The notes beneath the pieces are model-generated. The model made no database searches. It was not told the DNA's origin and saw nothing but the letters and a program-made list of their open reading frames with translations. From positions 124,001 through 188,000 of the forward strand of contig CATKHK010000047.1 in the NCBI GenBank assembly GCA_949751835.1: 64,000 bases of DNA, read 5' to 3'. Within the stretch, counting starts at the first letter, position 1. The number at the start of each line of letters is the position of its first letter. The position numbers and the translations under genes are program-made. This stretch comes from Blepharisma japonicum. Taxonomy: Eukaryota > Ciliophora > Heterotrichea > Heterotrichida > Blepharismidae. This document shows, one piece after another, positions 1-64,000 of this stretch.

Positions 1-2
1 CA

Positions 3-104
3 AAAATTTTGTCATTTTTAAAAGAAGAACATGAAGGAAAAAGTGAAAAGAAAACTGAGGAAATAAGATTTTCAAGAAAAAGAAACAGCGTGGACTCATT
101 TTAA
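3..104 (+). CDS. 3' end of an unidentified protein (partial)
   Basis: The frame that starts at base 3 stays open from the window edge and stops at TAA 102-104, giving 33 residues. They are charged and rich in Lys and Glu (FLKEEHEGKSEKKTEE), ending in RKRNSVDSF. The other two frames either stop early or read as low-complexity AT-rich sequence, so this frame is preferred. The start and most of the protein lie outside the window and the family cannot be told. Confidence 0.45.
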   Translation, partial: KILSFLKEEHEGKSEKKTEEIRFSRKRNSVDSF

Positions 105-333
105 GATGCGCAGATAATGATTTTGATGCTAATGTTAATACCTTTACAAATTATTTTTATAATATATTTCAGATGCATTATTCGAGACATCTGCTTCCTT
201 ATTTATTTAATTTAATAAAAATTATACGAAGTTTAATATTTAGTCTTTCAATAAAAGCTTTTTTCTGCTTATTAATTTTAAATAATCAGAACCATTTCAA
301 AATTTATTTTGAGGAAGATAATAGCTAATTAAA

Positions 334-1611
334 ATGAATCTCAATAAAGTTCAGCGATTTTCCAACACCCCAACAAAGCTAGGACACATCTCTTTATCCC
401 AACCCCCAAAAATCACTCTTTCTCAATCAGTCACCAACAAAGTTTCCCAAATTTACAAGAACTCCCCATATGCACGTCCAAATTCACGCTCAAAGTCTTC
501 TCCTCACAAGGCCGACCCTTCCCCAGCCAGAATTCGTCGAGCTACCCCTACAATAAAAAAAAATTCTTCGAGTTCCCTTCTACAAACCCATTCAATTCCT
601 CCTCAAAAACGGACTTCTTCGCATTCAAATTTGCCACTTCTCAATGAAAGTATCGATAATTTTACAGTCGTAAAACCTAATAGACAAGGCCACAGCGTAA
701 ATTTGTCATTTAATAATTCCTTCAAAATTTCTTCACAAGGGAACGATTCTAAAGGGTCTCCGAAAATCCCTTCAAGGCAAAGCACGGCATCGACAGAAAT
801 TCAGTTTCTTGAAGGCAAGCTTTCGCAGAAGCTAAGTGAGTTATCACAAAAAGATAGGCTGCAAACAGTAGGAAAACTTAGTGTTTATAGAGAAATTTTC
901 CAGGAAATTATAAATAAGGATACGATTTACGGGACTTTGTTGGCAAAAATCCAGAAAGCGTATGATGAAGCTATAACGGAAAGAAATACTTTGAAGTCTT
1001 TAAATACAAATGACTTAGAATCTAAATTAGAAGACTTAAACAGAAAATTAACTAACTGTGCAGAAAGTAAAAGATCGCTTGAAAAAAAAATTGAGCGAGT
1101 TTTAAAAGAAAATCAAGCTTTAAATATAAAGCTTGAAGACAAAGAAACAAGATATGAAGAATTGCAAGGCAAACTTTATAAAATATCACAAATTAATGTT
1201 GAAGGAGTGGATATGAATGAAGAAAGCTGAAAATTCATTATTGCTGAAAACAAGGCATATGCTGACTTATGTCAAAAAATGAAAACTGATATAAAAAATT
1301 ACAAGTACAAAGAAAAAAAATTATTAAAGCTTGTAATGGCGCTTAAAAAGCGAGGATACCCAGTTGAAGAAGTGTATGACCAAGATGTCCAGAAAAAGAA
1401 GAAAGAAATGCCAAAGTATGAAGGATCTGATGAGCCTGAAGATAATTCGGAAAATGAGCAGCTTGTTAGTGGCAGACCAAAAGATGTGAAGAAGCCTCAG
1501 AATATTCCAAGTTTAAAGTTGGAAGAAATTCAGCATGAAACCTTTTCATCATCTTCGTCTTCAAGCTATTCGGAGTCCAATGAATCGTCATCGTCTTCAT
1601 CAAAAGCTTAA
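334..1611 (+). CDS. Coiled-coil protein with basic N-terminus and Ser-rich tail
   Basis: This 425-residue protein reads through an in-frame TGA at 1228-1230 (Trp 299). Under the standard code it would fall into two adjacent in-frame ORFs. Residues 1-140 are basic, rich in Ser, Pro and Asn, and look disordered. About 155-310 form heptad-like coiled coil (ESKLEDLNRKL, KRSLEKKIERVL). A short conserved-looking stretch, LKKRGYPVEEVYDQDV, follows near residue 345. The tail is acidic and ends in runs of serine. This looks like a structural or adaptor protein, perhaps cytoskeletal, but I do not recognise the family. The ATG is the first in frame and follows AT-rich non-coding DNA. Confidence 0.75.
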
Positions 1612-1730
1612 TATAAATATATGTATTAGTCAAGATTGCTTGAATTTTTTGAATAATAAATCTTTTCTTTAATTTTTATTATTTATCATTTAAAAATAAT
1701 CATTATACACAATTTTTATTATTTCGCTAG

Positions 1731-2495
1731 TTAATTTTGAGTTTCATTTAAAAAACTACTTCCCTTATGCTGCTCAGTGCAGATTTCGCCTCTCATGACA
1801 AATTGGCTATCATTTTCGGTCGTTTTATTTATCATTTTTGCTTCAGTTTCGGTTTCTATTGTAACATATCTTTGCTCTTCGTATGAAAGTTTTTGAATGA
1901 TTATTTTTCTTGCAATAATTAAATAAGCAATATTTACAATTGTAATAAGAACTAGGATAGCTAATGATAGCTTTGGGGCATCTTCTGCACAAATTGTTAT
2001 GTCTACATCTCTCGAATTATGGCAGTCTCCGTTATAAGTAGCTTTTATTACACTAAGCCAGGTTACTATAGCTATAAAATGCCCCATTCAAGCCATTGCG
2101 CAGAAAAACATTGACCCTACCAAGTAGTCTTTTTTAAGTAAGAAAAATACCAATATCCCAGTCCAAACTATTGTGCACCCAATTGATAAGCACTCAAAAA
2201 TAGCATAGCTGCTTCCTCCTATATAAAGACTTTTCCAAAATTTGCATGTTTTATGTGGACAAAGGTAATAAAGATCAATAAAATTTACATAATTTGACTC
2301 TTTGGAAATTTCAGATGTTTCTAATAATTTTCCTTTATAATCTCTGCTGAGATCAGCATTATTTGAGCTGAATGAAGACCAGCTTGGAATAAATAAAGTT
2401 GCGATCATACACCCAAGAGCAATTGTATTAAGACATATAAATACGTAAAAAATTTTCCTATGACTTACTTTGAATACCTCAATTTTGTAGTCCAT
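1731..2495 (-). CDS. Four-helix (tetraspan) membrane protein
   Basis: This 254-residue protein includes one TGA-coded Trp at residue 136 (2088-2090), inside the third helix. Predicted membrane segments are about 15-36, 96-120, 124-150 and 175-195. A roughly 58-residue loop between helices 1 and 2 carries Cys79 and Cys84, close enough for a disulfide. The topology, with one long first outer loop and a short second loop (also with two Cys), resembles claudin/PMP22-like tetraspans. No family signature is clear enough to name. It is convergent with the upstream coiled-coil gene (119 bp gap) and divergent from the MFS gene. Confidence 0.7.
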
Positions 2496-2709
2496 ATTTT
2501 TCTTAAATTCTTAATATCTCCCTATGAGAAGTATTTTGATATTAAATAATTTTATCTCTTTTCAGTTAAAAAAATCTGTTCCAATTTTATTTTCTTATAA
2601 AAATATGATATAATAAAAAAAATTGAGTCAATTTAAATATTCAATTAATCCAATTTAATTCATTTTGTTGATCGAATTATTCAAATCGTGTGAACAAATT
2701 AAAGTATAA

Positions 2710-4110
2710 ATGGATATAGAAGAAGCAATATTTAGCCATCCAAACTCGAGTATTGATAGAATTCTGTCTCGAATTGGCTTTGGTCGGTATCAACTAATGG
2801 TCCTTTGCCTTTGTGGAGCTTTCTTAATGGCTGAAGGAGCTGAACTTCTCATCGTCACATTGATGTCTTCAGTTCTTCAAAAAGAATGAAATTTAAGCCT
2901 CGAAGCAGTCGAATTCATGGGCGGGATCCTATTTCTTGGCACAGCCATTGGAACTCTCATAGCAGGACCCTTAGGCGATAACTTTGGCAGACGAAAATGC
3001 ATGGTCTTTTCCTCCCTTTCCTACTGCATTTTTGCAGTGACCTCTGCTTTTATGCCAGATCTCTGGACCTTTGTATGCACAAGGCTCATTTTGTCAATTA
3101 GTCTCGGTGTTTTAGTCCCAATTGGCACCACCCTGATTGTAGAGACTGGCGTAGAAAATTCTAGAGGATTGTCCGTATTAGCTGGACAAATGCTTTATCA
3201 AGTAGGAACCACGATGGTTATTCTGCTTGGTCTTGCCTTAGTCCCAAACCTCGATCCCCTCTATTGGCGAGAGCTTTTACTACTTGCAGCTTGGCCAGCT
3301 TTTTTCAGTACAATTTTGCTAGTCTTCCTATTGGACGAAAGTCCAAGGTGGCTGGCCATGAACGATCAGCATGACCAATGTGTGAAGATTTTAAATAAAA
3401 TTGCAAGAATAAACAATGCCAGAAGAATAACTGTAGAAGAAATTGAAGCTGTCAAACTTATAGAAAAAAGTGAAGCCGAAAATCATTTAGATAGGCTTGG
3501 GCTAGTATTTGGAGGAGACTATTTAAGAATAACCCTACAAGGATTTTTCTTATGGTGGGCTATTGGGTTTTTATATTATGGATGTGTATTCATTCTGCCA
3601 AGAACTCTAGGAAGTGACTCATCTGACGGAGATGTCCTTACTAATTTGGCAATTATGAGCGTAATACAGTCACCTCTTTCGCTAATCCCGATGTTTTTGA
3701 TAGAGCAAGACAAATTTGGGAGAAAAAATACAATAATTCTGGTAAGTGTATTTCACTTGGGGACTTCACTATTGTGTGCGTATAAATGGACAAATACACT
3801 TTATTTCTCATTTGTTATGGGGCTACAGATATGTGGGATGGTGAATAGTGATGTAATAGTCCCTTATACAAATGAGTTATATTCGACTAGTGTTAGGACT
3901 ACAGGGTATTCATTGTGTTTTACGTTTATGAATATAGCAGCAATTTCGTCACCTTTTGTGCTGCTGACGCTACATCAAATGAATCCTATGTACCCTTATT
4001 ATGCATTTGCGGGTGTAGCAGCTTTGAATTTAGTCAATGGGTGCTTTTTGAAGAAAGAGTCAAATCTTGGATCGCTGGATACTTTTATAGTAAGTATCAA
4101 TAAAGTTTAA
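2710..4110 (+). CDS. MFS transporter, SV2/SVOP-like
   Basis: This 466-residue polytopic protein belongs to the major facilitator superfamily. The N-terminus (DRILSRIGFGRYQ, then AEGAEL in helix 1) matches SVOP/SV2-type carriers and organic solute transporters. The helix 2-3 loop motif GDNFGRRKC is the MFS A-motif, and the second-half equivalent DKFGRKN is present. The gene needs TGA 2887-2889 to be Trp (QKE-Trp-NLS); starting at the later ATG at 2917 would remove the first helix. Length is slightly short for SVOP (about 500). The substrate cannot be predicted. It probably sits in the plasma or a vesicle membrane. Confidence 0.88.
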
Positions 4111-4714
4111 GTGGTTGTCTCATGGTGAGGCAATCATTATAATTATTTTTTATAAAATTGGTTCTTAAATAAATTTAATTCATGGGAATATTGAAGGAAA
4201 ATCGTGCAGCATGTCAAAATTGAAGATATTTTGGAAATTAACTAATTCATAATAGAAACCTTAAAAAATATACCTCTTTGACTACTCTCAACCAATGCAC
4301 ATAGAATGCCAATTGAACTCTATGATCAGAGAGTGATTCATTTAAATTGTAGGAGTTTGCATTAGATTAAACAGAGCATTAAGCTAAAGAATAACTCTTA
4401 TATTATGATCAAAAACAAATATAATCATTTATAGGCAGCCTCAAAAAGAAAGTATAAAGCTACAAAAAACTAAAGAGTTAATTAACTGCAAATTTACGAA
4501 GTTGGTTAGAAGATAAATATATAAGATAAATTTGATTAAGGGTATCTTAATTTTATAAAATTAAATATAATAGCTTTATAAAATTGAATATAATAAATGC
4601 AGAATTTTTTCAATGTAATGTTTGCACAAATTTATCTAAAAATATAATAAATTTAAAAAGAAATAATTTTTAAATAGTATAGCCACTCAAAATCTCATAA
4701 TTTATTAATTTTTG
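4111..4714. other. Intergenic region between convergent genes, no gene seen
   Basis: This 604 bp AT-rich spacer lies between the ends of the MFS and ABCA genes. All six frames are interrupted by TAA or TAG at short intervals. I see no repeat, tRNA or intron-like element. Confidence 0.6.
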
Positions 4715-7700
4715 TTATTCTTTAGGATGTATTTTTCTGCTTAATCTTGCATTAGACATCTGCATATCCATCTCTCCTTCCGTCGCAAACATATTGAATA
4801 TTTGTTCTAGCGTAGTTTGGCTCAACGAATACTCACTCACATACAAATCTTCTTTCGCATCTTCAATTCTCCCAAAAATATCTCCAATTCCTTTACTTTG
4901 CTTCTCCAGTCTATACTTAAAATAAGTTCCATAATGCTCAATCAGCGTAATATCCACAAATTCATCTGTAAGCCACCTATATATAGCTTGTCCATATCTT
5001 TCTACAATAATCCACTCTACCAGATTATTTATTCCTAATTTCCCAGACTCATTCATTTCATCTTTCAAATGTGACCCTGTCCCTTCCTTCGATATTTCAG
5101 GGAACATATCTCCACAATCCAGGATTTCCATAGCATTTGCTACTTCTTCTTCACCAATAACGTCTTCTAAATATCTTGTCCTCAATTTATTGATAAATTC
5201 ATTAATTTCTTCTTCTCTTGGATATCTGACTTTTAAGAAAAATTCATAGCCACTGCTGAATTTATTTTTTATGTGAGTAGCTGTCCCATAGCATCTTAGC
5301 CTTCCATTTACCATTATTCCGATATTATTGCAGAGAGCTTCTGCTTCGTCCATAGAGTGAGTGGTTAAGATAATACTGACATTTTGTTTTTTTATGTTAT
5401 TTATAACACCCCACATATTTTTTCGTGCTTCTGGGTCCATACCTGCACTTGGCTCGTCTAAAAATACGACTGGAGGGTTTCCTATACAAGCTACTGCAAC
5501 TGAAAGTTTTCGCTTGTTCCCGCCACTAAGATTTCCTGCTCTTACTTTGGCATATTTTTCAAGATTCATATCTTTTAGCTGTTTTTCTACAAAATATTTG
5601 ATTAAATCTTTAGGGATTCCTTTGATTTTTGCATATAAAATCAAATGTTCTGTAGGGGTAAGTAAATCAGTTAAAGCATCAAATTGAGGGCAATAGCCTA
5701 TATTATACCTGGCCTCTGATAAATGTGTTATAACATTATACCCATTAATATAAGCTTCACCTTTAGTCGGCCCGTACTCTCCTGTCAAAATTCTAAACGT
5801 GCTAGTTTTTCCTGCACCATTAACTCCTAATAACGCAAAACACTCCTGAAAAGGCACCGCAAAAGAAATTTCTTGGATAGCTATTTTTACCTGTGTTTTA
5901 TTAAAAAAGCTTCCATATACTTTTCTCAGTGCTGACACCTTTACAGCAACACTATTTGGGTCTGTATCAGCAGTTTCTTTTTTGACTCTTTCTACATCAT
6001 CATCTTGTTTATATTCATTTTCTCCTGGATCTCTTGCAGACCCTATTTTTCTGAACCATTGTACAGTACTTGCCCATTCAATTACAAAAATCATAATCAA
6101 GCTTATTACTGTGTGTAAACATAAAAAACAAATGTCAGCTCCAGCGATCTGCCAATCTAATGGACCTCTTATATTAGATTCTTTATAAGCTGACTGATAC
6201 GCTTCTCTATTAGAAATATTCATAATTCCAAAAGAAAAACAAAAAGTGGGCGAAAAAATTCGAAAAGGCCACTCTAAGACGTCAGAAATGTTTCTGGTTG
6301 TGTCAGATATGATACGTAAGGTCCAAGTTAAAGTAGCAAAAATTGCACCTGTGATGAGGTGGTAAATAAAGGTAAAAAATTGTGCGATGGAGTAGCTTTT
6401 ATATACAAAGCTGCAGGCATAAGTAAAAGGACATATAGCGACCCCATATAGTAGGAATAGTGCTCATGTCGCCCCATAGACGTCATCAGACTCTACAAGG
6501 CTTTTTAAGCCAAAAGCTTTGATCATTAAGACTGAAATTATACCAGGGATCATAAATTTAGATAAATCCCATGCATAAGAAGATAGCCAATATGCAGGGA
6601 TTGACACGCCGCTTACCAAGTGTTGATGTTTTATATTGTTTTCACGCTCTTTTACTATAAAAGTAATAAGTCCTGTAGGAATAAATGAAACTCCGATAGC
6701 AAAAATCATAGAAACGTAAAATGTCCCGGCGTTTCTAGCAAGGTTTTGCTGCTTATGGGAGAGTGGTAATGGGTGGTTATAAATAGGAATTTTGAAATTA
6801 TCGTCATTATAGATGTTTTGCAAAAACGCTTCACCTACTGTGGCAGCAAATGTAGGGGCACCTTGTAAAGCTGTTGTATTATGGAAAATAACAACACTGT
6901 AAGCATGCTTTACTGGGTCAGCTTCATAAAAATAATAGGAGCCAAGCCTAAATGGATTATTTGTCCTTTGTTTATAGATGTTATAATCAAAATCATCTAA
7001 TGATCCTTGGTACTCTGACAGCTGAATTCGACCATTTGTATTGTCAACTGCTCTGTTCATAATAAATTTTATATCTGAAGCTCCAGCAGCTGATGGATTT
7101 AGATAAGGCTGAGGATTATAAAACACTCTTTGAGGTTTATCAAATTTATTAAGGTCTTCTTTTCATGATTTTTGATTATTCAAAATACTAAATTGTGTAA
7201 GTAAAGCTAGCCCAAATATGACACATAAAATAGGTAAAAGAATTTCTAATATAAATCCTTTAAAATCTCTCCATGAATAAATAATTCGTTTTTGTGTCAA
7301 CGCTAAAAAGTGAGACATGAATAGCATACCTTTATCATGATCTTTTGCGATATTAAAGGTTTTTGCTCTTTTGTTTTCAAACACCATTTCTTCTGCCTCT
7401 CCTAATGTGGCTGTATCAGCTTCTTTATTTTCTTCTTTTTGGAAGAATTTATCTTCATGTTCTAAGCTTGCAGTTCTGACTTTTTCAGGTGATAAATCAT
7501 TGTCTCCTCTAGCTACCCTCAAGAACACTTCTTCTAGTGTAGTTACTGATATTCCATATGCCTCAATTTTAAGATTAGCCATCTGTCTATCGAGTTCTTT
7601 GAAAAAGTTGCTAAAATAAACAGACTCTGATAAAGGAATTTGATATGTACATTCAGCTGAGACATCAGATAAAGTTTCTGCTTTTGGGATATATTTTTTT

Positions 7701-11536: not shown

Positions 11537-11627
11537 AATTATTCTTGAAATATTTAAAATTTTTCATAGTGATTTATGTGAAACTTCTACCTATAAGTTT
11601 TAAATCATTGAAAATTAAATAGCCAAT

Positions 11628-13136
11628 ATGAGCGACTCTATCAGAGACGACACAACTTTTGATTTATCAAGGGTCGAAAACCCCAAAAAAATTGTCAGTC
11701 ACAAGAATTCCATGAAAGCAGACTTCAGAAAAATTGTTCCGAAAGGAGTTCTGGTGAATTCGTTGGAATTTGTGTGCAAAAAGCAGCTTAAAATTGATTT
11801 GATTAATGCAGCCCTTGCATTTTCGTCAATTATGATCGTCTATTATGAAGTAGCATCTATTTAGAGTGAAGAGTTTTATAAGCAGGATACTAAATGCTCA
11901 GCTGGAGAGTGTGTAATAACGAAAAGTCATAATGAAAGCAATAATTATGTGACTTCCATGAGGGTTACTAATATCGGTATTACATTGGTGATTCGTAAGA
12001 TTTATTTAGTATGTTTAATATATCAACACTACCTTTATGAGCTTGAAAAAATGAAGATTCGGAAACAAGTTCCTCCACAAAGTACATTGAAGACTTCCAG
12101 CCTTTTAAAAGCAATGATCCCCGAAATGATCATTATGGGAATTTTTTGTCCACCTTATTTTGATTCTACGTTTTCAGGGACCATGCTTAATGGAAAATAT
12201 GTGTACTCATATGACGTGATTATTGCAGTTTTGACGATTTTGCGTGTTTTTCTTATTTTAAGAGTTTACACACATTTTTCTATATGGCTAAGCAACGAGT
12301 CTTTTAAAGAAGGAAAAAAGCTTGGAGTCAACACAAACGTGTTTTTTGCCCTTAAAGCTGACCTAAAGTATCAGCCCCACATCATTCTATCAGCAGCAAT
12401 TGGGACCCTCGTCATTTGTATAGGCTATGCTGTAAGAGATTTAGAGCGCCCATTTGTCTCAACTACAAAATCAAGGCTGAATTTTGACTACCTCACAAAT
12501 GGCTGGTGGATGACTGTTGTCACAATGACTACAGTTGGTTATGGAGATGGCTACCCATCCACTCATTTTGGAAGAGCCTTAATGTTATTTACCGCTATAG
12601 CTGGACTAGTCATGGTTTCTTTATATGTCGTCACTTTAACAGTTGCCACAATGTTTAGCAAAGAAGAAACCAAAGCTTATTATATGATAAAAAAAGTCAA
12701 AGCTAATAGCGATGTTAGGCACAAGGCATCAAATGTAATAAAAGCCACTTTTAAGCTAAAAGAAGCACTTTTGAGGAAAAAAGGCATAAATTATTTAAGA
12801 AGGGTATTTATTTATGGAGCTCTTCTGAGAAGGCATATACATTATTTTAAAAGAGATACAAGTGTTGCTAATACAAGATATTTGCCGCCTCCAGAAATGC
12901 TGGTTCAGCTAGAACAGAAATTGATTTCTGATATTGATGATATTAGGAAAGAAATTATTGATATTGATTATATAGGCGAAAGACTGCAAGAATTGATTGG
13001 GAATCAGCAGGTTATGACGGAAAATCTTGATAGGATTTTAAATGCACAGAATTCAATTGAAAGATTGATGACTCAGGTGAATATTGAGCAGCTTATAAAG
13101 GGTGGGAAAGAAGAGGCTGATAACAAGTTGACTTAA
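11628..13136 (+). CDS. Potassium channel, SK-like (Ca2+/calmodulin-type)
   Basis: Two exons (11628-11849 and 11865-13136) encode 497 residues once the 15-nt intron is removed. There are six predicted membrane segments. The selectivity filter TTVGYGDGYP lies at about 295-304 (GYGD 299-302) between S5 and S6. S4 lacks the regular Arg ladder of voltage-gated channels. The stretch ALKADLKYQPHIILSA before S5 and the basic region after S6 (RHKASNVIKATFKLKEALLRKK) resemble SK channels, where that region binds calmodulin. A coiled coil ends the protein. This suggests a Ca2+-gated K+ channel, but calmodulin binding is inferred only. The start ATG is the first in frame after the divergent promoter. Confidence 0.9.
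11850..11864 (+). other. 15-nt intron (K+ channel gene)
   Basis: GTAGCATCTATTTAG lies between Glu74 and Ser75 in phase 0. Without its removal the ORF ends at the intron's own TAG. After removal the frame continues to the pore domain. Confidence 0.9.
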
Positions 13137-14465: not shown

Positions 14466-17400
14466 TTATGCTTTACTTCTAAAGATGCTGCCACAGATCT
14501 CACACTTCAACGCTCCACTGTCATTATGGAAAGTGCACATCGGACAAGCAATCTTCCCTGTTGGTGCTTTAGTATCTTCATTCTCTGACCCAACATCACT
14601 AATATTAACCGCCACATCATCAGTCGGATAATACGCAATTGCACTGCTTTCTTTATAATAATCTTCACTTGGCTCCGATTTCAGGGCAAACGGTTTCGGC
14701 TCAGATGTGCTAAAATCATACTTTAAGTCTCCCCATGGTAGCCCTGGGTTTTTCTTCGTCAGAATAATCAAGTCTTTAAACGTATGTGCTGAAAGCTCAA
14801 TAACAATAGGAGTAGACGGGTACAAATAATTAGGGTTTTCATCAGGCGAGTGAATTTGCAAGTTTACCCTAACAGGGTCACTTGATCTATTGTAAACTTC
14901 AAATCTCATGATAGTTTGGTCTTCAAAGAAAAGCTTGTCATGATCTTCTTCTTCCTCTTTATGCTCTTCTTTAGGCTCTTCTTGGGTCGTGATGTGGACC
15001 TTGGGGTACTCTTCAGCTGGGGTGTTAAAACTACTACCAGGGCTTGGGATAATAGGGACTGCTTCATCAGTTGTTTCTTCTTCACATTCTTCGTCTGCGT
15101 GCTTCTGCTGCAGATATGCATTGGATTGGGTTGCTGAAGTCTTCCCAGGAGGTGGTGGACCATATGCAACAGCCCTTTCATCAGTCGATGGATAGTTAAA
15201 GCTTGAATAAGGATAAGACCCATAAGACTGAGCATTGGTACTTGTGTAGCTATATCCTTGAGAGTCTACATTAATTCCTGCAGGTCTCGAGCTTGAATAA
15301 GAAGCTTTTATATTAAGCTCGCTTCTCAATGGTTTTGTAGGTAGTGCAAGATTTCTTTTTCCATCCGGCTCACTTCTGCCCCATTGAGTTGTATATTCTG
15401 TGACTGTCAGCAGTACATCTTCCTGCTCACTTTGGCTGGCTATTTCTTTTTTAGTGGTCCTGCCAAGTATAAACATTTCTTTGTTCTCACATGGGTATTT
15501 TTCTTTAAATTCTTGTAAATATTTAGAAGCGTCGATACTGTGGTCTTCTTTTTTAGTGGAATAAGAGCTGGAGCCATAAGAGACATAAGAAGAGGAATAG
15601 TTCTTGTAATTGGTGATGTATTCTTCAATTCAGTCAATATAATGTTTATATTGATAAGTTGCAGGAGGAAGGTTATTGATATAGCTGGCAAGCTCAGGGT
15701 TTTTGAGGCAGATTCCTAAGAGATGCTTGATACTCATGATGCAGTAATGGTCCCATCTTCGCCTGTGCTTCCAAATTAAGGATAAAACACTTTCTGCAGC
15801 GTCATAGATTGTATAGCCAAAACAGAGGGTGGTAGAATAGGTGACGACTTCGTCATCAATTGCAGTGATTATGGAGCTGCCGAAGAAAGGATACATTAAA
15901 TCAGCTCTGTTGATTTTCACTAAAGTGGGGAAACCCATAATCCACTCAATACGGTGTTCTAAATAGAAAATTACTGGTCAAGCTGTCTTTTATGGTCAAA
16001 AATTCTTCTAAGACTTCGTAAAATCCTTTAACTTCTTCATATTCTATTTCATTAAGCCCTTTAAGGATAATCTGTGCTATCATCTGTGAGTACTCTTTAT
16101 CTTCATAGCTCCAATGTGACACAATTTCTGACAGTGCTTTTCCATCATACCCATTTCTCAGTGTTTTATCATAAGTCTCCTTATCAAGTAAGCATGATTT
16201 TTCCTCATAAGTCAGTCTATATTGTCCATCAGCCACATTAGTTGCACAATACTTGTCAAGGATCGCAATAATCTGTATAAGTGCGTCAAAGTTCGGGGTC
16301 CAGAGCTTATTTCCAAGAGCTTGCCTATTTTCTCCTGGCTTTAGCAGAGGAGATTTATTCCCTAAATAAAAATCTAAGAAAATTCCAATGGCTCCTTTGT
16401 GAATCAAATACAAAGCATGCTCAGGGCTTTCAGCGGCAAAATCTTTAATGACCTCCCAGAACTGCTGGAACCTTGTCCAATGCTTCGAGATGTCTTGTGG
16501 GATCAAATTCAATAGCCCGTCAATAAAGATTTTTGCAATAGAGTTATCAGAAAAGTCTCTTTTCGCTAACAAGTTCAAACTAAATGAAAACAAGTCTGCA
16601 AGGGCAGATCGGGTTGTTTTTTCAATACAGGTTAGGAGTAATTGCGTTACTGAGAACATACTATTGTCGAGCAGCTTCAGCATCCATTTTTCACAGCTTT
16701 CAGGAAATTCGCTGAATAAGTCTTTGATGACTTTTACTAAGTCAGGAAGTGCTCGGTTGTGGTAGGCATGAGACATTACTTCTAAAGCGAAATCAGCTCC
16801 AATAGCGCTTAAGTCTGTGAAGCTTGCTTCAGCACTTTTGATAATTTCGACGAAAAAGTTGAAGAATTCAGCGCTGTATAGGTTTCGCTCAAACATATAC
16901 CTTTCATTATCCTTCAGTACACTTTGATATATAGATGAAGGCATAGTACGTCTCAGGTCGTTAAAGTTCCGCAATTCAAACTCCTCCTCACTCCTAGGGG
17001 AAGTGGTACTATCACCTTCTAGGACGGGAGCTTTCAATATTTTTAAAGGATGTTTTCTCTTCTTTTCATACACTAGCATATAAGCATTTTTTGAGTTTTC
17101 CTTGAAGCTTTTCAGCCAAGTCGCAGAAAAATCATCTCCTCCAAAATCTTGAGCTCCTCCAAAGCATTCGCTTTCAATATTGTCAGGACTAAATAAAAAT
17201 TACTTAAAAACTCTGACTGTAGAATCATTAAATTCATACCATTTCTGAGGGTCGGCTTCTCCATTTGGCAATCTATGGCGAATAAACGAATAATAGTGGC
17301 CCATCTGTGCAGTTCCAAGATGCAGCACAATACCTACAAGATAATATTTATAATCTTCTGGGTCAATCTCTGAAGCCGGCTGCTCAGCTGTTTCTTGTTC

Positions 17401-25230: not shown

Positions 25231-26250
25231 ATGACACGTGTATTTTTTGTCCTTCTCATAGGGATTGTTCTAGGTATCGACTATTACGAAGTCCTTGAAG
25301 TTTCTCCAGATGCAGATGAATCTGAAATAAAAAAAGCCTTCAGAAGTCTAAGTAGAAAATACCACCCAGATAAAAACCCTGGAAATGAGGAGGCTCACCA
25401 AAAATACTTAGAAGTCACAAAAGCAAACGAAATTCTATCTGACTCCGCAAAGAGACAAATATATGATATTTACGGAGAAGATGGGCTTAATGACCAACAG
25501 CTCTTCAATAGGCGACGAGGCCCGAATTTTCGATTCGAATTAGAAGTTGATTTAGAAGATGTCTATAATGGCCTCGCTAAAGAAACTACTATAAGAAGAA
25601 ACGAACTCTGTAAGAAATGCAAAGGAACAGGAGCAAAAGACAAAAAAACTGTCCCTTGTAAAGCGTGCGGGGGCAAAGGTGTAAGGCTTCAAAACGTGGG
25701 AGGCTTTGGATTTAACATGCAAATGCAAGTTCAGTGCGAAAGATGTGGAGGAAGAGGATTTGTAAGATTTATTTAGCTTGCTGCAGAGAGATGTCCTAAC
25801 TGTGGAGGGCAAAAGGTCGTAAATGCATTGAAAACTCTTAATGTACAGATTGAGCCAGGGATGGACAATGGTTCTGAAATTATATTTCCAGGACAAAGTG
25901 AGCAAAGTCCTGATTGGTTTCCTGGGGACATTATTTTTGTGCTGAAATTGAAGCCTCATACACGTTTTGAAAGGAAAGGAAACGATTTGTCAACCTCTAT
26001 TAGATTGACGCTGAAAGAAGCTTTGTTAGGGTATTCAAAGCAAATTAGCCATCTTGATGGGCATGTAGTGCAGATTGATTACACTGGGGTTACACAGCCA
26101 GAGTCTGTGAGGATTGTTAAAGGTGAAGGAATGCCACATCAAGATGTCCCATCAAATAAAGGAAATTTGCATGTGCGGTTTATAGTTGATTTGCCAGGAA
26201 AATTGACCCCTGATCAAGAAAATACAATTAGGCAGCTGTTTCCTCGTTAA
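25231..26250 (+). CDS. DnaJ/Hsp40 co-chaperone, secretory (ER) type
   Basis: Two exons (25231-25761 and 25777-26250) encode 334 residues. A hydrophobic N-terminus ([15 protein letters not shown]) is a likely signal peptide. The J domain follows directly, with the HPD tripeptide at 45-47 that activates Hsp70 ATPase. A cysteine-rich region has four motifs ([32 protein letters not shown]), and the fourth comes from exon 2. C-terminal substrate-binding beta domains follow ([17 protein letters not shown]). It is a class A-like architecture with little Gly/Phe linker. It resembles ER-luminal Scj1/ERdj3 proteins but has no KDEL-type tail (it ends LFPR). It probably works with an ER Hsp70 (BiP). Confidence 0.93.
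25762..25776 (+). other. 15-nt intron (DnaJ gene)
   Basis: GTAAGATTTATTTAG in phase 0, inside the zinc-finger region. Retention ends the protein at its TAG before the fourth CxxC motif. Confidence 0.93.
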
Positions 26251-37486: not shown

Positions 37487-38974
37487 TTAGAGTCCTATAG
37501 TCCCTTTGAGTGTAGCATCATCAATTCTTTGCAAAGAGTTTACATAGGCTGCAATTCTGAGGTTCACGCCAAGTCTTTCACTGGTTTCTTTTGTTTCTTG
37601 GACTGCTTCGCTCATAATTTGTTCAAGGCCTGAGTAGACCAGGTCAAGCTCACTGGCACCTTCTGCGAGTTTTTTCCAGTCAGCACTTTTAGCTTCAAGT
37701 TCTACTTGGGAGATCCCTTTTAAGGTAGCGATGGCTTCTATGATACTTCTGTTACGTTTTCCTTGCCATCTTTTTGTGAGCAGGCCAGGCTTGATGTGTC
37801 CGAGATTTTTGACGTATTCGAAGAAAGAGACTGTAACACCGCCAGCGTTCATAAGGAGGTCAGGGAGGACCAAGACACCTTTCTTCTCGAGGGCTTCTTC
37901 ACCAAGAGGTGTTGTAGGGCCGTTAGCACCTTCTGCTAGAATTTTGCATTGGAAGTTTGGAGCGTTGCCGCCGTGGACTGATCGTTCGACAGCTGCTGGG
38001 ATTATGATGTCAGTTTTTCTGGTGAAAACTTCTTGGCCGTTTTCGACGAGCTCAGCTTTAGGGTAGCCTTTGAGAGTTTTGTGCTGGATCATGAAAGCTT
38101 TGAGATCATCGACATCAATGCCGTTTTCATTAAATACAGAACCACTTGGCTCGATTACTCCAAGGACTTTTGCACCGTCTTTTTGTAGGAAGTGGCAAGC
38201 CCAATAGCCAACATTACCGAATCCTTGAACAATTACTTTTTTACCATTAATTCCAGTAGGCAGTTCAACCTTATCAGTATATTTTTTGTCTCTTAAAAAC
38301 TCTCTTAATGCATAATAAAGCCCAAGCCCAGTTGACTCTGCTCTGCCTGGGATACCTCCCATCTCTAATGGTTTTCCAGTGGTGCATGCAACAGCATTTA
38401 AGTTTGTTGGATTTAGGGATTTATAAGTATCCATCATCCATGCCATTTCAAGTTCTCCTGTTCCCAGATCTGGTCCTGGTACATCAGCAGCAGGGCTTAA
38501 GAATCCTTTTTTGCTCAATTCTAATGCATACCTCCTTGTTAATCTTTCTCTTTCACCAAGTGAAAGTGTCTTAGGATCTACAGTAATTCCTCCTTTCCCT
38601 CCTCCAAATGGTAAGTTCACACATGCACATTTGAGTGTCATAAGGAAAGAAAGAGCTTCAACCTCATTAAGATCAACATCCAATGCATATCTTGTACCTC
38701 CTTTACAAGGTAGTCTATGATGAGAATGCTGTGCTCTATAAGCTTTGTAGTATTTAATAGACCCATCATCTAGTTTGAGGGGAAGGGTTACACGTAATAC
38801 AGTATCACATGTTTTAATCAGCTCTAGGACTTCTGGCTTGATATCTGTATGTTTTGCTGCTTTGTCAAAATACATGTTGACCATTTCCAAGAAATTAGGC
38901 TCTGTTGAAGGCCCCGAACTCATTTGTCTGAAAGAAGTGCGATTTGCGAAGGTTTTTAGAACTTTGGACAGCAT
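37487..38974 (-). CDS. GDH: Glutamate dehydrogenase, mitochondrial
   Basis: This 495-residue enzyme interconverts glutamate and 2-oxoglutarate plus ammonia with NAD(P). The N-terminus (MLSKVLKTFANRTSFRQMSS) is a typical mitochondrial presequence. Family motifs are HRLPCKGGTRY (about 87-95) and NLPFGGGKGGI, whose Lys127 matches the catalytic lysine. The dinucleotide-binding VQGFGNVGYWA is at about 249. Length matches animal-type hexameric GDH without a large insertion. All tryptophans are TGG. It lies 34 bp from the start of the coiled-coil gene on the same strand. Confidence 0.97.
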   Translation of the reverse strand: MLSKVLKTFANRTSFRQMSSGPSTEPNFLEMVNMYFDKAAKHTDIKPEVLELIKTCDTVLRVTLPLKLDDGSIKYYKAYRAQHSHHRLPCKGGTRYALDVDLNEVEALSFLMTLKCACVNLPFGGGKGGITVDPKTLSLGERERLTRRYALELSKKGFLSPAADVPGPDLGTGELEMAWMMDTYKSLNPTNLNAVACTTGKPLEMGGIPGRAESTGLGLYYALREFLRDKKYTDKVELPTGINGKKVIVQGFGNVGYWACHFLQKDGAKVLGVIEPSGSVFNENGIDVDDLKAFMIQHKTLKGYPKAELVENGQEVFTRKTDIIIPAAVERSVHGGNAPNFQCKILAEGANGPTTPLGEEALEKKGVLVLPDLLMNAGGVTVSFFEYVKNLGHIKPGLLTKRWQGKRNRSIIEAIATLKGISQVELEAKSADWKKLAEGASELDLVYSGLEQIMSEAVQETKETSERLGVNLRIAAYVNSLQRIDDATLKGTIGL

Positions 38975-52085: not shown

Positions 52086-52160
52086 TAAATGTAAATTTAT
52101 TAGCTTTTACTATAAAAGGCTCTAAATCATACATTAATAATTTTTCATTTATAAAACATA

Positions 52161-52565: not shown

Positions 52566-52589
52566 TTAAAATTTTATGCAAAATAATCA

Positions 52590-55570: not shown

Positions 55571-55598
55571 ATTATTATAAAAAAATTCTCAGAAAATA

Positions 55599-58409: not shown

Positions 58410-58782
58410 GAGATTATTATTCAGGGGAAAATTTTGGGATTTTTCTTTGAGTTCTTTATAGTAAAAAATGATGTATTTATCAACAAAATTTTGTTGACAT
58501 TTTTCTGGCTTAAAATTTTGAATAAAAAGTTTAAAAATTATAAACTAATTTTATTAAATACATAAAAAGGAAAATTAATCGGAATTGATGTCAAGCTTGA
58601 TTAATGAAAAAAAGTTTGCATTTGCATCATACTTATTTATAGTTATCGTATTTCCTTTTAACAAATCAAATTTCCAGCAATATTATGGTTTTATTTTTTC
58701 ATCCTAAATCTATTACTAAGCTGGTAGAAAATTCTCCAAGCTAAAGAAAATTTTTATATATATAAATTTAGGTAGTTATTAT
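58410..58782. other. Intergenic spacer, nothing seen
   Basis: This 373 bp AT-rich spacer separates two tandem minus-strand genes. No ORF or RNA gene is visible. Confidence 0.5.
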
Positions 58783-61290
58783 TTAGTTTGTCCCTTGCAC
58801 ATCAGAAATAATTTCTTTATGGTCCTTAGAAGCCATTTCAACAGTGTTATTAACAGCCGAAGCTCCCATTTTTTTAGTCTGCTCAGCAGTCGAATTCATG
58901 GATATCACAAGTGGCGCATAGCTTGGATTTTCCATAATATCATAGCTATGTATCCCTATCGCTCTCAAATTCTTCAACTCCTCCATATAAGTGTTTGCAG
59001 CCCTTTCTGTCAAAACCTGGTTCTTATGCTTACTTTTCAAGAAATCCTTTAAAAAGAATTGCCAGAAAAAAAGTAGAAAGGAAATCCCACATAATATAAT
59101 ATTGACTCTCCCTGGAAATACCCAAATTCTATCTCCTATAGTCTCAGTTCTTACATCAGAAATATAAGTTTCTCCAGTCGAGTCTGTATATGAAACATAT
59201 TTTCTTGGGAAAATATCTTGGCTTCCATACATATATAAAGAAAACCCACAATGCAGCATTATTCCAAATGGCAAAAAAAAGCCTATTCGTTTGTACATTA
59301 ATTCTGAATATACTGGAGGTTTTCGGTAGTGCCTTAAAACTAAAAATTTATCAGTCCAATAGACTACAACCAAGATGACAAAACATATGATATTTAATAA
59401 TGGAATTCCTCCAGAGTAAAGGTAGCAGCTAAAAATCACAGTAAGGACTACTGAGGTTCTTGAGGAAATATCAAATTCAGGCCCTGTAAAAGCTGCGTTC
59501 ATCTGATATTGGGTGATGTATCTTCTACGGCAGCAATGTCGCTTAATAACACCGATTGGGTAAAATATCAATAAGTTGATAAAATGAGGAAGAGCAATAC
59601 TTACTAATAAAGTCGCTGTAATAGTGGCGCCTACATCTTCGTACCACTCTCTTGAAAAATCTTTATAGTCTCCATTAAAAAGGTACTCTTTAAACGCCAG
59701 CCTCTGCACAAACCACAAAGATTGAAAATTGGCATTAACAAGTAGCGTTATAAACGCAGTGTTAATAAACATGGCGACGAAAACTTTTGACATCATTGAC
59801 ATCCTCATCCCACTGACTGTAGAAATTCTTTCAAATTTGGTAAGTTTGGTTAGCATTATCCTCAGAATGGTATTTATAAAAACAATACCAATGCTCGAAA
59901 GAAAACGAACAGAGCTCGTAAGGGACACTTTTTCTATATAATCGGTGCAATACGAATTAAGATCACTATCACTGAAAAGCTTGTACCAATTTTGCTTCTT
60001 GCAATAGCAGTATATTTCATCGGTTGTTGTGTAGTCTTGCTTAGCTGCTGCTAATGATTCGTCTTTGACATCTAATTCTGAGCAATGGTTTTGATTTGGA
60101 ATTTCATTTTGCAAGTATTTTATCGCATAAATTAAAGCTATTGATAAAATCATTAAGGCTAAAGTGGGAGCAATTGCAAAGACCCTGCGAGCGTTTCGTT
60201 TCCAGCGAGGATATTCAATATTTTCCCATAAAATATTTGAAGGTTCTGGGGCTTGTTTTACTTTAAGCTCATGTCTGCCTCTGAACATTAAATGCCTTTT
60301 CATTTTCCGACAGCAGCAGCATTTGATATAAGAATTTTTATACTCGTTAAGGCACTTTTTTTTGTCTTCAACTTTATTAAATATAATAAATGCTTTTATG
60401 ACTGGAAGTTCGTCAAAGGTTTTAACATTTCCATTATCAGCTTTATATAATTTTCTGTCAAAAATTGACATTTGTCTTTGCAGGTTTCTTAACTGCAATG
60501 TATTTTTGTTTTTTAACTTCTCATGACCAATTTTTATACTGATTTGTGCTCGTTTACTATAAAAAAATAATCTCCCTGAAAAATCTTTGGCAAAAGCAAC
60601 TTCCACAACTTCTCCAAATTGGCTGAAATGTTCTTTAACTTCTTGGGCCCGCAAAGGTTCTTTTGGAAGACCTTTAACTTCGACCGCAAAAGATCCAGGA
60701 GTTACCGTTTGAAGTTTACGCTTCTTGACGATCCTATTAACATAAATCTCAAAATAAACCAAAAAAATGATGAAAAAGCTTGTATAAATAAGGTCAGCTA
60801 TAGTGATGTTCATTTGATTATCTTTAACAGTATCCAGCATTGAGTCTGCTTCTGAATACAACGTGTAATTAAAATCAGCACCTTCTTGATTTGCAAGGGA
60901 AATAAAAGTGTACGATGCTTTTTGTGCCGTGTCAGCTAAATAATTTCCTTGATAATTTTCATAGATCGGCCATATAGATATGCCAGAAATAATGAAAAAA
61001 ATAATTGCAAATTGTTTGATTAGCTGGAAATAAAGCTCTAGACCAACTCCATATTCGCCTAAAGTGGATAGATTAGTCCCAATGATCGGGTATTTATAGT
61101 AGTGATCATCTTTAAACTGCCTGAGACTTGTTTTGTTGCGGTGGTCTTTGGCGACCTCGAAATTTGCATAGGTGACGCTGTCGCTTACAGTTTGTCTCTT
61201 TTTATAGTTATCAGCACTATCAATCCCTCCTGAGGCAAGTGCAACGTTCCCGGCTTGAATTTGAAAAGCCTGTTCTAGCATGTCGTTCAT
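58783..61290 (-). CDS. OSCA/TMEM63-like membrane channel
   Basis: This 835-residue protein has about ten predicted membrane segments. An N-terminal cytosolic segment and early helices come first, then a large cytosolic domain with an RRM-like fold (FAVEVKGLPKEPLRAQEVKE, FGEVVEVAFAKD). Next is APEPSNILWENIEYPRWKR, which matches the APEP..I.WENL motif before the pore helices of the CSC1/OSCA/TMEM63 (DUF221) family. Members are mechanically or osmotically gated cation channels. The membrane part is more diverged than in plants or animals. All tryptophans are TGG. It is divergent from the mitochondrial carrier with an 889 bp gap. Confidence 0.82.
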   Translation of the reverse strand: MNDMLEQAFQIQAGNVALASGGIDSADNYKKRQTVSDSVTYANFEVAKDHRNKTSLRQFKDDHYYKYPIIGTNLSTLGEYGVGLELYFQLIKQFAIIFFIISGISIWPIYENYQGNYLADTAQKASYTFISLANQEGADFNYTLYSEADSMLDTVKDNQMNITIADLIYTSFFIIFLVYFEIYVNRIVKKRKLQTVTPGSFAVEVKGLPKEPLRAQEVKEHFSQFGEVVEVAFAKDFSGRLFFYSKRAQISIKIGHEKLKNKNTLQLRNLQRQMSIFDRKLYKADNGNVKTFDELPVIKAFIIFNKVEDKKKCLNEYKNSYIKCCCCRKMKRHLMFRGRHELKVKQAPEPSNILWENIEYPRWKRNARRVFAIAPTLALMILSIALIYAIKYLQNEIPNQNHCSELDVKDESLAAAKQDYTTTDEIYCYCKKQNWYKLFSDSDLNSYCTDYIEKVSLTSSVRFLSSIGIVFINTILRIMLTKLTKFERISTVSGMRMSMMSKVFVAMFINTAFITLLVNANFQSLWFVQRLAFKEYLFNGDYKDFSREWYEDVGATITATLLVSIALPHFINLLIFYPIGVIKRHCCRRRYITQYQMNAAFTGPEFDISSRTSVVLTVIFSCYLYSGGIPLLNIICFVILVVVYWTDKFLVLRHYRKPPVYSELMYKRIGFFLPFGIMLHCGFSLYMYGSQDIFPRKYVSYTDSTGETYISDVRTETIGDRIWVFPGRVNIILCGISFLLFFWQFFLKDFLKSKHKNQVLTERAANTYMEELKNLRAIGIHSYDIMENPSYAPLVISMNSTAEQTKKMGASAVNNTVEMASKDHKEIISDVQGTN

Positions 61291-62179
61291 TTTTTATTAT
61301 TGTAACCTACTTCTCAGAATGAGTTTTTTTATTTTTGGTAAAAGAATTTACTATCTTTAATTATTGTTATAGAAAGATTGGAGTTGATTAAACGTAAAAA
61401 TATCATATAGGATAAGATAATGGATAATTTATTTAGTTTTGGATTTTAGTAAGTTTTAATTATTGAAAGGTCGCTGAGATTAGTTTTTTGTCTGGTTTTT
61501 ATTAATATTTTATAATGCTTTAGCTATATAACCTTCCACTTTACGTCATCTTGCATTTTTTGCCATATTTTAATTCTAATTTTGTTTTAATTGTAAATAA
61601 CTTTTTTGATAGGAAAATCCCTTTTAATTGTTCAAGTCAATAGATTTGAGCATTATTTATAAAATATTAATTTTATACTAATTTCGACATAATAATTATA
61701 TCAGATTATTTATATTATTGTGCTTTTAAGTTTATCTTAAAATTTGAATTTTTAGAATATTTTATATATTTTGGTTTATTAAATAACATTAAGTGATAGT
61801 AATTTGGATGAATTTTATAATCCATTAATTATCTTTATTAATTTATGATAAGAATTAATTTTTTTTAATCCTCGTTAAAGCTTAATTCCAAAGTCTTGAA
61901 GCATTTATACAATGAAAATTATATAAGCATTTACAATTATGCTTCTCTTTTAAATTATTGTCCTATTGCTTTTCATTTGTGACCTTTTTCAAAAATCAAT
62001 AATATTTAAAATTTTTAAAGCTACTCAAATAATTTTTACATAGCCTAAATAAGAATATTTTTCCACAACTCTAGCTTGGTATTTTCAAGTTTCCTTAAAT
62101 TCTGACCTGCCATGCTAAATTTTCATCACAGCTATCCATTTTCAGATGTTACTGATTTTATGATTTGTTATAATTAAAT
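61291..62179. promoter_or_regulatory. Long region between divergent genes, no gene seen
   Basis: This 889 bp AT-rich region separates the channel and carrier starts. TAA and TAG are frequent in all frames, and I see no RNA gene or clear repeat. Confidence 0.45.
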
Positions 62180-63112
62180 ATGAGCCAACAAGAACTTCCA
62201 TTCATAATCTCTTTCTTGGGTGGTAGCATCTCTTCCACTACAGCAGAGCTAGTAACATTCCCTATGGACATGCTCAAAACTAGAATGCAATTAGGAGGGA
62301 CTCAAGGCGCAATGAAATACAGAGGAATTTTCCATATAATCACTCATACCTATCAGACTGGAGGCATTGGAGCTTTCTATAGAGGAATGATCCCTGCCTT
62401 AGTCAGACAATTCACTTTTTCAGGAATCAGGATTTCGCTCTATGACAAAGTTAAATTTTTGATGGGAGATGACCTTGCTTCAGGCGGATTTTGGCAAAGA
62501 TTTGTATTCGGCGCTGGCTGTGGTGGTTTCGCATCCTTTTTAGTCACTCCGTTAGACGTCTGCAAAGTTAGAGTCATCAACGACGCAAAAAAAGAAAAAT
62601 ATTCTGGCCTAATTGACTGTTTAAAAAAGACATGGTCAAAAGATGGTTTTGTCCATGGTTTTTATAAAGGAAGCTCACCAAATATCTACAGATCAGTTGT
62701 AGTAAACGCAGCTGAGCTCGGAACCTACGACAATTCTAAAGCTTTACTAATGAAAAACTTCTCTATGAGAGAAGATTCATTATGGACTAGATTTTGGGCT
62801 TCAGTTATGGCAGGGTTTATTGCAGCTGTAGCAAGCTCTCCAATTGACGTCGTCAAAACAAGATATATGAATGCAACTAAAGAGGATCCTAATGTGCCTA
62901 AAGGGAGTGAAGTCAGATACACAAGTCCTTTAGACTGCTTCAAGAAAATCATCAAGAATGAAGGTGTAGGCGCTCTTTACAACGGCTTCATGTTCCTCTG
63001 GATGAGACTTGGGCCTTGGTGCGTAGTCATGTTCATCACCTGGGACCTCTACAAAGACGCTGCAAAAAAATACTACCTGCAGCAGAAAACCAAAGAAGAG
63101 CTCCGAAAATAA
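62180..63112 (+). CDS. Mitochondrial carrier (SLC25) protein
   Basis: This 310-residue protein has three tandem repeats of about 100 residues. Each holds the carrier signature PxDxxK: PMDMLK (28-33), PLDVCK (124-129) and PIDVVK (221-226), and each odd helix is followed by a matrix helix. Closest in style to the SLC25 group of dicarboxylate, oxoglutarate and uncoupling carriers; the substrate cannot be fixed from sequence alone. It sits in the inner mitochondrial membrane. All seven Trp are TGG, as in other probably highly expressed genes here. Its end lies 32 bp from the convergent ribosomal gene. Confidence 0.95.
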   Translation: MSQQELPFIISFLGGSISSTTAELVTFPMDMLKTRMQLGGTQGAMKYRGIFHIITHTYQTGGIGAFYRGMIPALVRQFTFSGIRISLYDKVKFLMGDDLASGGFWQRFVFGAGCGGFASFLVTPLDVCKVRVINDAKKEKYSGLIDCLKKTWSKDGFVHGFYKGSSPNIYRSVVVNAAELGTYDNSKALLMKNFSMREDSLWTRFWASVMAGFIAAVASSPIDVVKTRYMNATKEDPNVPKGSEVRYTSPLDCFKKIIKNEGVGALYNGFMFLWMRLGPWCVVMFITWDLYKDAAKKYYLQQKTKEELRK

Positions 63113-63144
63113 GGTAATCAGTATTAATCAATAAGGATTATTTA

Positions 63145-63954
63145 TTAATCCCAAGATGTAGGTGGGTTTGCCTCTTCTCCTTCAGCTTGGTTTCCCCAGT
63201 TTCCTTCATCCCAGGAAGCTCCCACTTCTTGTTCTTCTCCTGCTTCTCCAGCTCCTTGGTCCCATTCTTCTTTTTGTTTATAAACTTTGGCTTCTCTTGT
63301 GACCTGTCCTTGTTCTTTGGCAGCCTTTTCTTCAGCCTCGATATCTCTCCATATGAATAAATCGACCATGACATCCCATTGTTGAGATCTGCTTAAAGCT
63401 CCTCTGAGGTACAAAACTTCTCTGGCAAGTAGCCAATACATCATGGCGATGGAATTTTTGGCTTTATTATTGCAAGGAATTGCAATGTCGACGAACTTCA
63501 TAGGGGAGTCTGTGTCACAAAAAGCAATAGTTGGGACGTTTACGTAAGAAGCTTCTTGTAAGGCTTGGTAATCGGTGAGAGGGTCTGTGACAATAATAAG
63601 GCGAGGCTCCATGAATTTTGGAATTCTTTGGTTTGTAAAAGTACCAGGAGTCCAGCGGCCAGCGAGATATGAGGTTTCTGTGTATTGAGAAAACTTGTAG
63701 ACTGCTCTTTGACCGTATGGTCTTGCACTGATTACGATCACGTCTTGAGGGTTTTCGACGGCGACGATAGCTCTTGCGGCAAGCATTAGTTTTTCCCATG
63801 TTTTTCCTAAATGGATGAGGTTAAGTCCATCTGCACGTTTTGTGAAAACATAAGGTTTCATAAATTCGCTGACATTATTTGTGCCGAGATGTGCTTTTAC
63901 GGCTAACAAAAGTTGAATGTCCTCTTCCCTTTGCTGCTTGCGTTGTTGGCTCAT
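63145..63954 (-). CDS. RPSA: Ribosomal protein SA (uS2)
   Basis: This 269-residue protein matches cytosolic 40S uS2/[24 protein letters not shown], then [66 protein letters not shown] and [20 protein letters not shown]. The acidic tail carries E/D-W motifs (EEWDQG, SWDEGNW, TSWD), the repeated tail pattern of RPSA. The start is ATG 63954; a TTG just upstream is not needed and an in-frame TAG lies four codons before the ATG. Nine tryptophans are all TGG. Expression should be very high. Confidence 0.97.
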
Positions 63955-64000
63955 CAATGGCGACTATTAAAAATGTCCGTATGTTGGGATAGCTATATAG

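Follow-up and report, generated by a model that had tools for sequence, protein, structure and literature searches.

Gene models and in-frame TGA codons

The stretch of DNA studied here, C47:124001-188000, is a window of 64,000 nucleotides within an assembly of 45.19 Mb in 224 contigs (C denotes a contig), and its genes carry the codon TGA in frame; this report deals with how that codon, a stop in most organisms, is read. By base counts the G+C content is 34%, and judged by gene density the DNA is probably macronuclear. Open reading frames (ORFs) were listed by closing them at TAA or TAG only, after which three tiny introns were removed, giving 31 gene models. In-frame TGA occurs in 17 of these, with 41 TGA and 182 TGG among 17,457 codons, which confirms the initial annotation's observation of in-frame TGA in many genes throughout the window. 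Twenty-six models end with TAA and five with TAG, and internal TAA or TAG codons number zero, in line with the annotation's statement that these two codons still end genes. It should be noted that this result is partly due to construction, since the frames were cut at TAA and TAG.

In the models TGA occurs 2.35 times per 1000 codons in frame versus 35.5 times out of frame, the out-of-frame values for TAA and TAG being 31.6 and 19.5. When TGA is counted as a tryptophan (Trp) codon, it makes up 18% of the Trp codons in the window models and 26% in a wider ORF set; the 137 uncurated ORFs of other loci hold 134 TGA versus 321 TGG and probably include shadow frames. The anoctamin carries twelve TGAs, as the annotation had counted, and five TGG, versus 29 and 177 in the remaining models (Fisher p = 1e-6; the gene was chosen for its high count). 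Zero TGA was found in the genes at 37487-38974, 62180-63112 and 63145-63954, which from their sequences are putatively glutamate dehydrogenase, a mitochondrial carrier and ribosomal SA, respectively. A naive list of 35 ORFs had held 48 TGAs, of which seven lie out of frame, leaving 41. ORF 15673-17079 accounts for six of these seven, since a 16-nt intron interrupts it and they fall beyond the end of its exon; the seventh belongs to ORF 63467-63799, which shares sequence with another gene read in a different frame.

The genes that the annotation had joined across TGA do give family-length products, as judged by their alignments: residues 12-294 of the 295 of the CDK-like kinase align with CDK2, and the calcium-dependent protein kinase (CDPK) and the protein disulfide isomerase (PDI) align with homologues of solved structure over residues 21-484 of 486 and 18-461 of 478. 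The best metagenome relatives cover 99% of the anoctamin (P0003) and 100% of the ABCA transporter (P0012). Table 1 gives the TGA-bearing genes and predicted introns, together with the loci elsewhere in the assembly (numbered L) that are considered below.

Table 1. Coordinates of features in the window (plain positions) and of decoding-related loci elsewhere in the assembly (contig and positions); lengths in amino acids (aa) or nucleotides (nt)
Feature	Length	Position	Strand	Remarks
TSNAXIP1_N-domain coiled-coil protein	425 aa	334..1611	+	Pfam; TGA codon 299
Four-pass membrane protein (label from sequence alone)	254 aa	1731..2495	-	no Pfam match; TGA codon 136
MFS transporter	466 aa	2710..4110	+	Pfam Sugar_tr/MFS_1; TGA codon 60, aligned with Met of SV2A
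ABCA transporter	1784 aa	4715..10069	-	TGA codons 18, 67, 90, 194, 316, 319, 969, 1202
Myb protein	314 aa	13234..14178	-	TGA codon 57 (K-TGA-S), aligned with Trp of c-Myb R2
Very large putative ubiquitin hydrolase (read from sequence)	2993 aa	14466..23478	-	one gene, two introns removed; two TGAs, codons 299, 2606
Predicted intron GTAATTTTCTATTTAG in 14466-23478 gene	16 nt	15959..15974	-	
Predicted intron GTAATTTTTATTTAG in 14466-23478 gene	15 nt	17189..17203	-	
CDK-like kinase	295 aa	23833..24720	-	TGA codon 175 (TL-TGA-YRAPE), aligned with Trp of CDK2
Putative DnaJ-like gene (named from sequence reading)	334 aa	25231-26250	+	contains 15-nt intron
Predicted intron GTAAGATTTATTTAG in DnaJ-like gene	15 nt	25762..25776	+	
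Rab-like GTPase	178 aa	28616..29152	+	TGA codons 69, 109, both aligned with Trp of Rab1A
Large membrane protein	1061 aa	29974..33159	-	no Pfam match; TGA codons 523, 1032
Coiled-coil protein	1054 aa	34288..37452	-	TGA codons 103, 185, 618
RING-type E3-like protein	645 aa	39161..41098	-	weak zf-RING_2 match under cut-off; TGA codon 30
Protein disulfide isomerase	478 aa	41944..43380	-	TGA codon 337, aligned with Arg in PDI
Calcium-dependent protein kinase	486 aa	43951..45411	-	TGA codon 225 (DE-TGA-SCG), aligned with Trp of CDPK1
Rab GTPase	198 aa	45762..46358	+	against Rab5A, TGA codon 120 = Trp, codon 165 = Phe
Anoctamin	1039 aa	48966..52085	+	TGA codons 116, 131, 391, 423, 475, 517, 522, 579, 591, 599, 610, 760
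Small membrane protein	195 aa	54983..55570	+	weak SARAF match under cut-off; TGA codon 60
NPC1/Patched-type protein with sterol-sensing domain	936 aa	55599..58409	-	TGA codon 716
eRF1 a (L002)		C121:90287-90658		KSSNIKS, A70, YICDNKF; 0 TGA, 3 TGG
eRF1 b (L003)		C29:400682-401053		SATSIKS, A70, K123, YICNNVF; 1 TGA
eRF1 c (L004)		C9:327595-327966		SATSIKS, S70, K123, YICDNKF; 2 TGA
tRNA-Sec(UCA) (L055)		C60:226544-226629		75.6 bits, over cut-off; ARAGORN agrees
SepSecS (L063)				425 bits; match contains one TGA and one TAG
Thioredoxin reductase (L064)		C4:745634-747091		C-terminal GC-TGA-G-stop; its five Trp codons are TGG
Glutathione peroxidase (L076)		C59:43824-44147		TGA at catalytic site
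Selenophosphate synthetase, SelD (L088)				Cys at the potential selenocysteine site (by eye)

ARAGORN detected no tRNA in the window, and no Rfam match was obtained there at gathering cut-offs. The ion-channel ORF 11949-13136 opens with GTG, and an upstream exon is probably missing from its model.

Residues aligned with TGA

For the two proteins with most TGAs, the anoctamin and the ABCA transporter, TGA was masked as X and the products were aligned with homologues. Rows known or likely to come from Blepharisma were removed (P0001 and P0002 for the anoctamin; P0011, P0026, P0028 and P0016, which we take to be the MMETSP entry for B. japonicum, for ABCA), leaving 8 and 116 homologues, respectively. 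Trp was the commonest residue in 8 of the 12 anoctamin TGA columns (one tied with Tyr) and in three of the eight ABCA columns, namely those of codons 90, 316 and 319, the first of these by plurality (13 of 67 residues). In the same alignments Trp was commonest in four of five anoctamin and 9 of 19 ABCA columns under TGG. A log-odds score was then computed over the columns that were at least half filled, comprising 19 of the 20 TGA columns and 22 TGG columns. Under TGA, Trp scored +47.1, whereas Tyr (-7.6), Phe (-9.0) and the remaining, still lower residues were all negative; under TGG, Trp scored +60.2. The score returned the standard residue for all 59 sense codons represented by four or more columns, TGT and TGC giving Cys and CGA giving Arg. 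These values bear out the annotation's reading of UGA as Trp.

X-masked searches of solved structures were evaluated from the best two or three alignments per search, which for CDK, CDPK and Myb are close versions of one protein. They placed Trp at the TGA sites of these three proteins, at both sites of the Rab-like GTPase and at one of the two sites of the Rab GTPase. The annotation had maintained that the TGAs lie exactly where the families require Trp. This holds for the sites it named in CDK, CDPK and Myb R2, but the wording was too strong for the whole set: scoring of homologues, the check it had proposed, covered 29 of the 41 TGAs and gave Trp as the commonest residue at 17 (15 by strict majority). 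Among Rdx-domain paralogues, by eye, the same Trp is encoded by TGG in L081 and by TGA in L085 and L086.

The annotation had also assigned the DNA to Blepharisma, and B. stoltei was indeed the closest named relative of all three proteins searched (the anoctamin, ABCA and the release factor paralogue eRF1 c). Global alignments with the B. stoltei counterparts gave 94% identity across 1039 residues for the anoctamin and 95% across 1521 for ABCA, and B. stoltei has Trp at every one of the 12 and eight TGA sites, respectively; the corresponding database-search identities are 95% and 96%, and eRF1 c is 94% identical. The source organism is either a further species of the genus or a distant strain of B. 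stoltei. These Trp residues mark conserved positions and not independent decoding, since the B. stoltei proteins, whose codons were unseen, were presumably translated with UGA as Trp. UGA is reported to encode Trp in B. stoltei, a genome of 66% A+T with introns mostly of 15 and 16 bp (PMC9942806), sizes matched by the three introns of 15, 16 and 15 nt predicted here.

The decoding machinery

A tRNA-Trp backbone pattern allowing either a CCA or a UCA anticodon, and a DNA search with the tRNA-Trp gene itself, agreed on six tRNA-Trp genes, identical over 74 bases and all with the anticodon CCA. Of the 30 sequences that matched the pattern, six are tRNA-Trp and three tRNA-Cys, while the other 21 carry two mismatches and include a tRNA-Arg; ARAGORN was run over 20 of the 30. 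Three of the six genes lie within 4 kb (C47:94422-98151), 26-30 kb upstream of the window on the same contig. In all six copies an A27.C43 mismatch shortens the anticodon stem to 4 bp, as drawn by ARAGORN for the L035 copy. Among the 23 distinct tRNA sequences examined, from a set that is incomplete since 63 of 2483 candidates from the general tRNA search (RF00005) were scored, only tRNA-Trp and tRNA-Ser(CGA) lack a pair at 27:43. A 4-bp stem is reported to let tRNA-Trp(CCA) read UGA, and such a tRNA-Trp has been described in Blepharisma and Loxodes (PMC13092985, PMC12005148). The mechanism is therefore likely to be near-cognate reading by the shortened-stem tRNA-Trp(CCA) and not by a UCA tRNA.

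With the PF03463 profile four loci were obtained, three of which encode eRF1 (a, b and c, Table 1), while the fourth, L001, appears Pelota-like from its sequence. GGQ is kept in all three paralogues. A modified eRF1 had been expected in the annotation, but paralogue a is close to canonical in its KSSNIKS and YICDNKF motifs, and KSSNIKS, A70 and YICDNKF are also what is tabulated for eRF1 of B. americanum, B. japonicum and B. musculus (PMC4695839). According to the same source, L126I in yeast eRF1 and S70A both raise UGA readthrough. I126 separates the Blepharisma eRF1s from the Stentor-clade rows shown, although Ile is also found in P0147. In a midpoint-rooted tree of 34 rows, a, b and c form one clade (99/95) with their B. 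stoltei orthologues, of which each paralogue has one, and with P0133, beside the clade that holds Stentor; b and c group with P0133 (100/100). So rooted, the tree suggests that the triplication came before the divergence from B. stoltei and after the Stentor lineage had split off. The literature searched on Blepharisma eRF1, as far as its accessible parts go, holds no mention of a second eRF1 in the genus.

Codon 14 of both b and c is TGA; all 18 rows that extend over this position have Trp, the 19th row, P0133, being gapped there. That the two share this TGA may reflect inheritance plus chance, given that 18-26% of the Trp codons are TGA. With UGA needed as Trp at codon 14 of both genes, production of b and c would require that reading of the codon prevail over termination. 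We considered a division of stop reading among the paralogues, in which a would serve routine UAR (UAA and UAG) termination, b and c would depend on UGA reading and c would limit itself. In that scheme c, which shares S70 with the eRF1s of the standard code, would switch off its own production if it still recognises UGA, and would thereby set the balance among Trp, selenocysteine (Sec) and stop at UGA. Bacterial RF2 likewise has an in-frame UGA, of which the proposed loop of c would be the eukaryotic counterpart. Taken jointly, we regard this proposal as speculative and rather unlikely.

UGA probably has two sense meanings, Trp and Sec, because the assembly contains a tRNA-Sec(UCA), SepSecS and SelD, together with TGA at two Sec sites. 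One of the latter is the penultimate codon of a thioredoxin reductase, where chain 3ean has X and chain 1h6v has Cys opposite the TGA. The other is the catalytic site of a glutathione peroxidase, where the residue opposite TGA is Ser in 2wgr and is Cys in 2v1m; among the eight glutathione peroxidases found, the other seven have Cys at this site. The Cys of 1h6v and 2v1m and the Ser of 2wgr are presumably Sec replacements. Trp at either catalytic position would be expected to abolish activity, and Sec is the natural reading. UGA is very probably read as Sec in both proteins.

Support for a selenocysteine insertion sequence (SECIS) is weak: Rfam gave none near either gene, even at E values up to 10, nor did a first SECIS scan yield a hit at the thioredoxin reductase. 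Hairpins do follow both stops; in each, AAA comes eleven bases after GTGA, and the opposite side carries a GA. A later scan for this SECIS-like arrangement matched three of 159 flanks and ranked the two genes first and second, a ranking that is partly circular since the scan was designed after viewing both flanks; the third match comes without an in-frame TGA. The hairpins fold mildly better than shuffled sequences (z -1.60, 15 of 200 as good; z -1.96, 7 of 200), and the minimum-energy fold of the peroxidase hairpin does not match the SECIS-like pairing exactly. A weaker SECIS-like hairpin lies 3' of ORF 1458-2901 of L070, a TrxR-superfamily oxidoreductase without TGA in its match. The parts of the literature searched contain no report of selenoproteins or of Trp/Sec duality in Blepharisma.

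Alternative readings and comparison with known codes

Taken together, the results support the interpretation in the initial annotation of a Blepharisma code in which UGA encodes Trp and UAA and UAG are stops, and we hold with high confidence that the DNA is from a Blepharisma close to B. stoltei, with UGA most likely decoded without a cognate tRNA. From the tRNA and eRF1 sequences we infer that in the cell tRNA-Trp(CCA), its stem cut to 4 bp by A27.C43, would read UGA, with eRF1 yielding. Termination at UGA should be weak and that at UAR kept, because eRF1 carries the Blepharisma L126I, a substitution for which increased UGA readthrough has been reported; in the mRNAs of selenoproteins this codon would probably be read as Sec by tRNA-Sec(UCA). 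A number of observations weigh against this account. A tRNA-Trp(UCA), which the annotation had expected, was not found in the nuclear assembly by the pattern (with 20 of its 30 matches followed), the DNA search, ARAGORN or the 63 of 2483 RF00005 candidates scored, six CCA genes being found instead, and a mitochondrial tRNA-Trp(UCA) may be used in the cytosol. Furthermore, A70 is also present in the eRF1 of Stentor, where UGA is a stop, and in other rows, so A70 alone explains nothing. The literature is also in conflict: an eRF1 of B. japonicum reportedly responded to UAA, UAG and UGA in vitro (Eliseev 2011, cited in both PMC4967479 and PMC6879139), whereas recognition by Blepharisma eRF1 is elsewhere said to be limited to UAR (PMC4695839). 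Finally, at 12 of the 29 scored TGAs the commonest residue was not Trp (F, I, L, K, M, R or mixed), but such columns do not weaken the assignment since TGG columns behave likewise.

A reading with UGA still as a stop, in which the genes split by TGA would be pseudogenes or products of misassembly, would fit the lower number of TGA than TGG (41 versus 182), but 41 TGAs stand against zero internal TAA or TAG in the 31 models despite the frequent out-of-frame occurrence of these codons (their absence being partly by construction). In addition, B. stoltei has Trp at all 12 and all eight TGA sites of two proteins that are about 95% identical, and conserved genes such as CDK, PDI and two eRF1 paralogues carry TGA; this reading was rejected on the codon-specific pattern in the window models, and its probability is negligible. 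UGA as another amino acid, either Cys as in Euplotes or Arg, could draw on the mixed residues in some TGA columns, yet all residues except Trp score below zero there while TGT and TGC give Cys and CGA gives Arg. The log-odds column scores led us to reject it, and we consider it extremely improbable.

The two further alternatives are improbable but less remote. An ambiguous code like that of Condylostoma, with UGA as Trp inside genes and as stop near their 3' ends, would be in keeping with the low share of TGA in the last 25 codons, both in the wider ORF set (6 of 175 TGA versus 38 of 486 TGG, Fisher p = 0.051) and in the window models (0 of 41 versus 7 of 182, p = 0.35). This depletion is, however, not significant, and the wider set contains uncurated ORFs and one probable Sec codon. 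Nor does any gene model end at TGA, although rare TGA ends would be missed with frames cut at TAA and TAG only; we therefore give this code little chance. A mitochondrial tRNA-Trp(UCA) that is imported into the cytosol or leaks into it would account for UGA decoding in place of the 4-bp-stem tRNA-Trp(CCA), but the 27:43 mismatch in all six tRNA-Trp copies found, and the recurrence of the 4-bp-stem design in unrelated eukaryotes with UGA as Trp (PMC13092985), argue for the shortened-stem tRNA, and we rate the mitochondrial route as scarcely more probable than the ambiguous code.

The code of UGA as Trp is already known for Blepharisma, since besides B. stoltei it has been published for B. americanum and B. 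japonicum (PMC4967479). The window thus mainly adds another genome of the genus, and its useful part is the decoding machinery, with the eRF1 trio and the Trp/Sec duality as the parts worth following. The puzzle of a B. japonicum eRF1 that recognises all three stops can now be addressed paralogue by paralogue, as the published motifs belong to one of three genes. If UGA does mean Trp and Sec with little or no role as a stop, Blepharisma would offer a simple setting for asking how Sec-tRNA competes with a Trp-tRNA and not with a release factor.

Compared with the code described for B. americanum, B. japonicum and B. stoltei, the present DNA is alike in UGA as Trp, UAA and UAG as stops, a preference for UAA and tiny introns, and also in the KSSNIKS/YICDNKF motifs of eRF1 and the tRNA-Trp with a 4-bp anticodon stem (PMC13092985, PMC12005148). 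It differs in its TGA frequency (2.35 per 1000 codons for the 31 models of the window versus 0.059% for B. japonicum, PMC4967479) and in two extra eRF1 paralogues and the probable Trp/Sec duality, which find no mention in the parts of the Blepharisma literature searched. Trp/Sec duality has been described in Blastocrithidia (PMC12153298) and Amoebophrya (PMC6394959), where, unlike here, UAA and UAG are also reassigned, and in Condylostoma and Parduczia (PMC4967479). The latter two share with the present system UGA as Trp in coding sequence and, as is probable here, also as Sec, and for Condylostoma, too, no tRNA-Trp(UCA) was detected in the nuclear assembly (PMC4967479); in contrast, UAA and UAG are sense codons there and stops here, where no evidence of UGA ending genes was obtained. 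Euplotes resembles the present case in a reassigned UGA, in more than one eRF1 and an eRF1 with I126 (PMC4695839), and in UGA also encoding Sec (cited in PMC12153298), as it probably does here, but there UGA means Cys, whereas the log-odds columns give Trp here.

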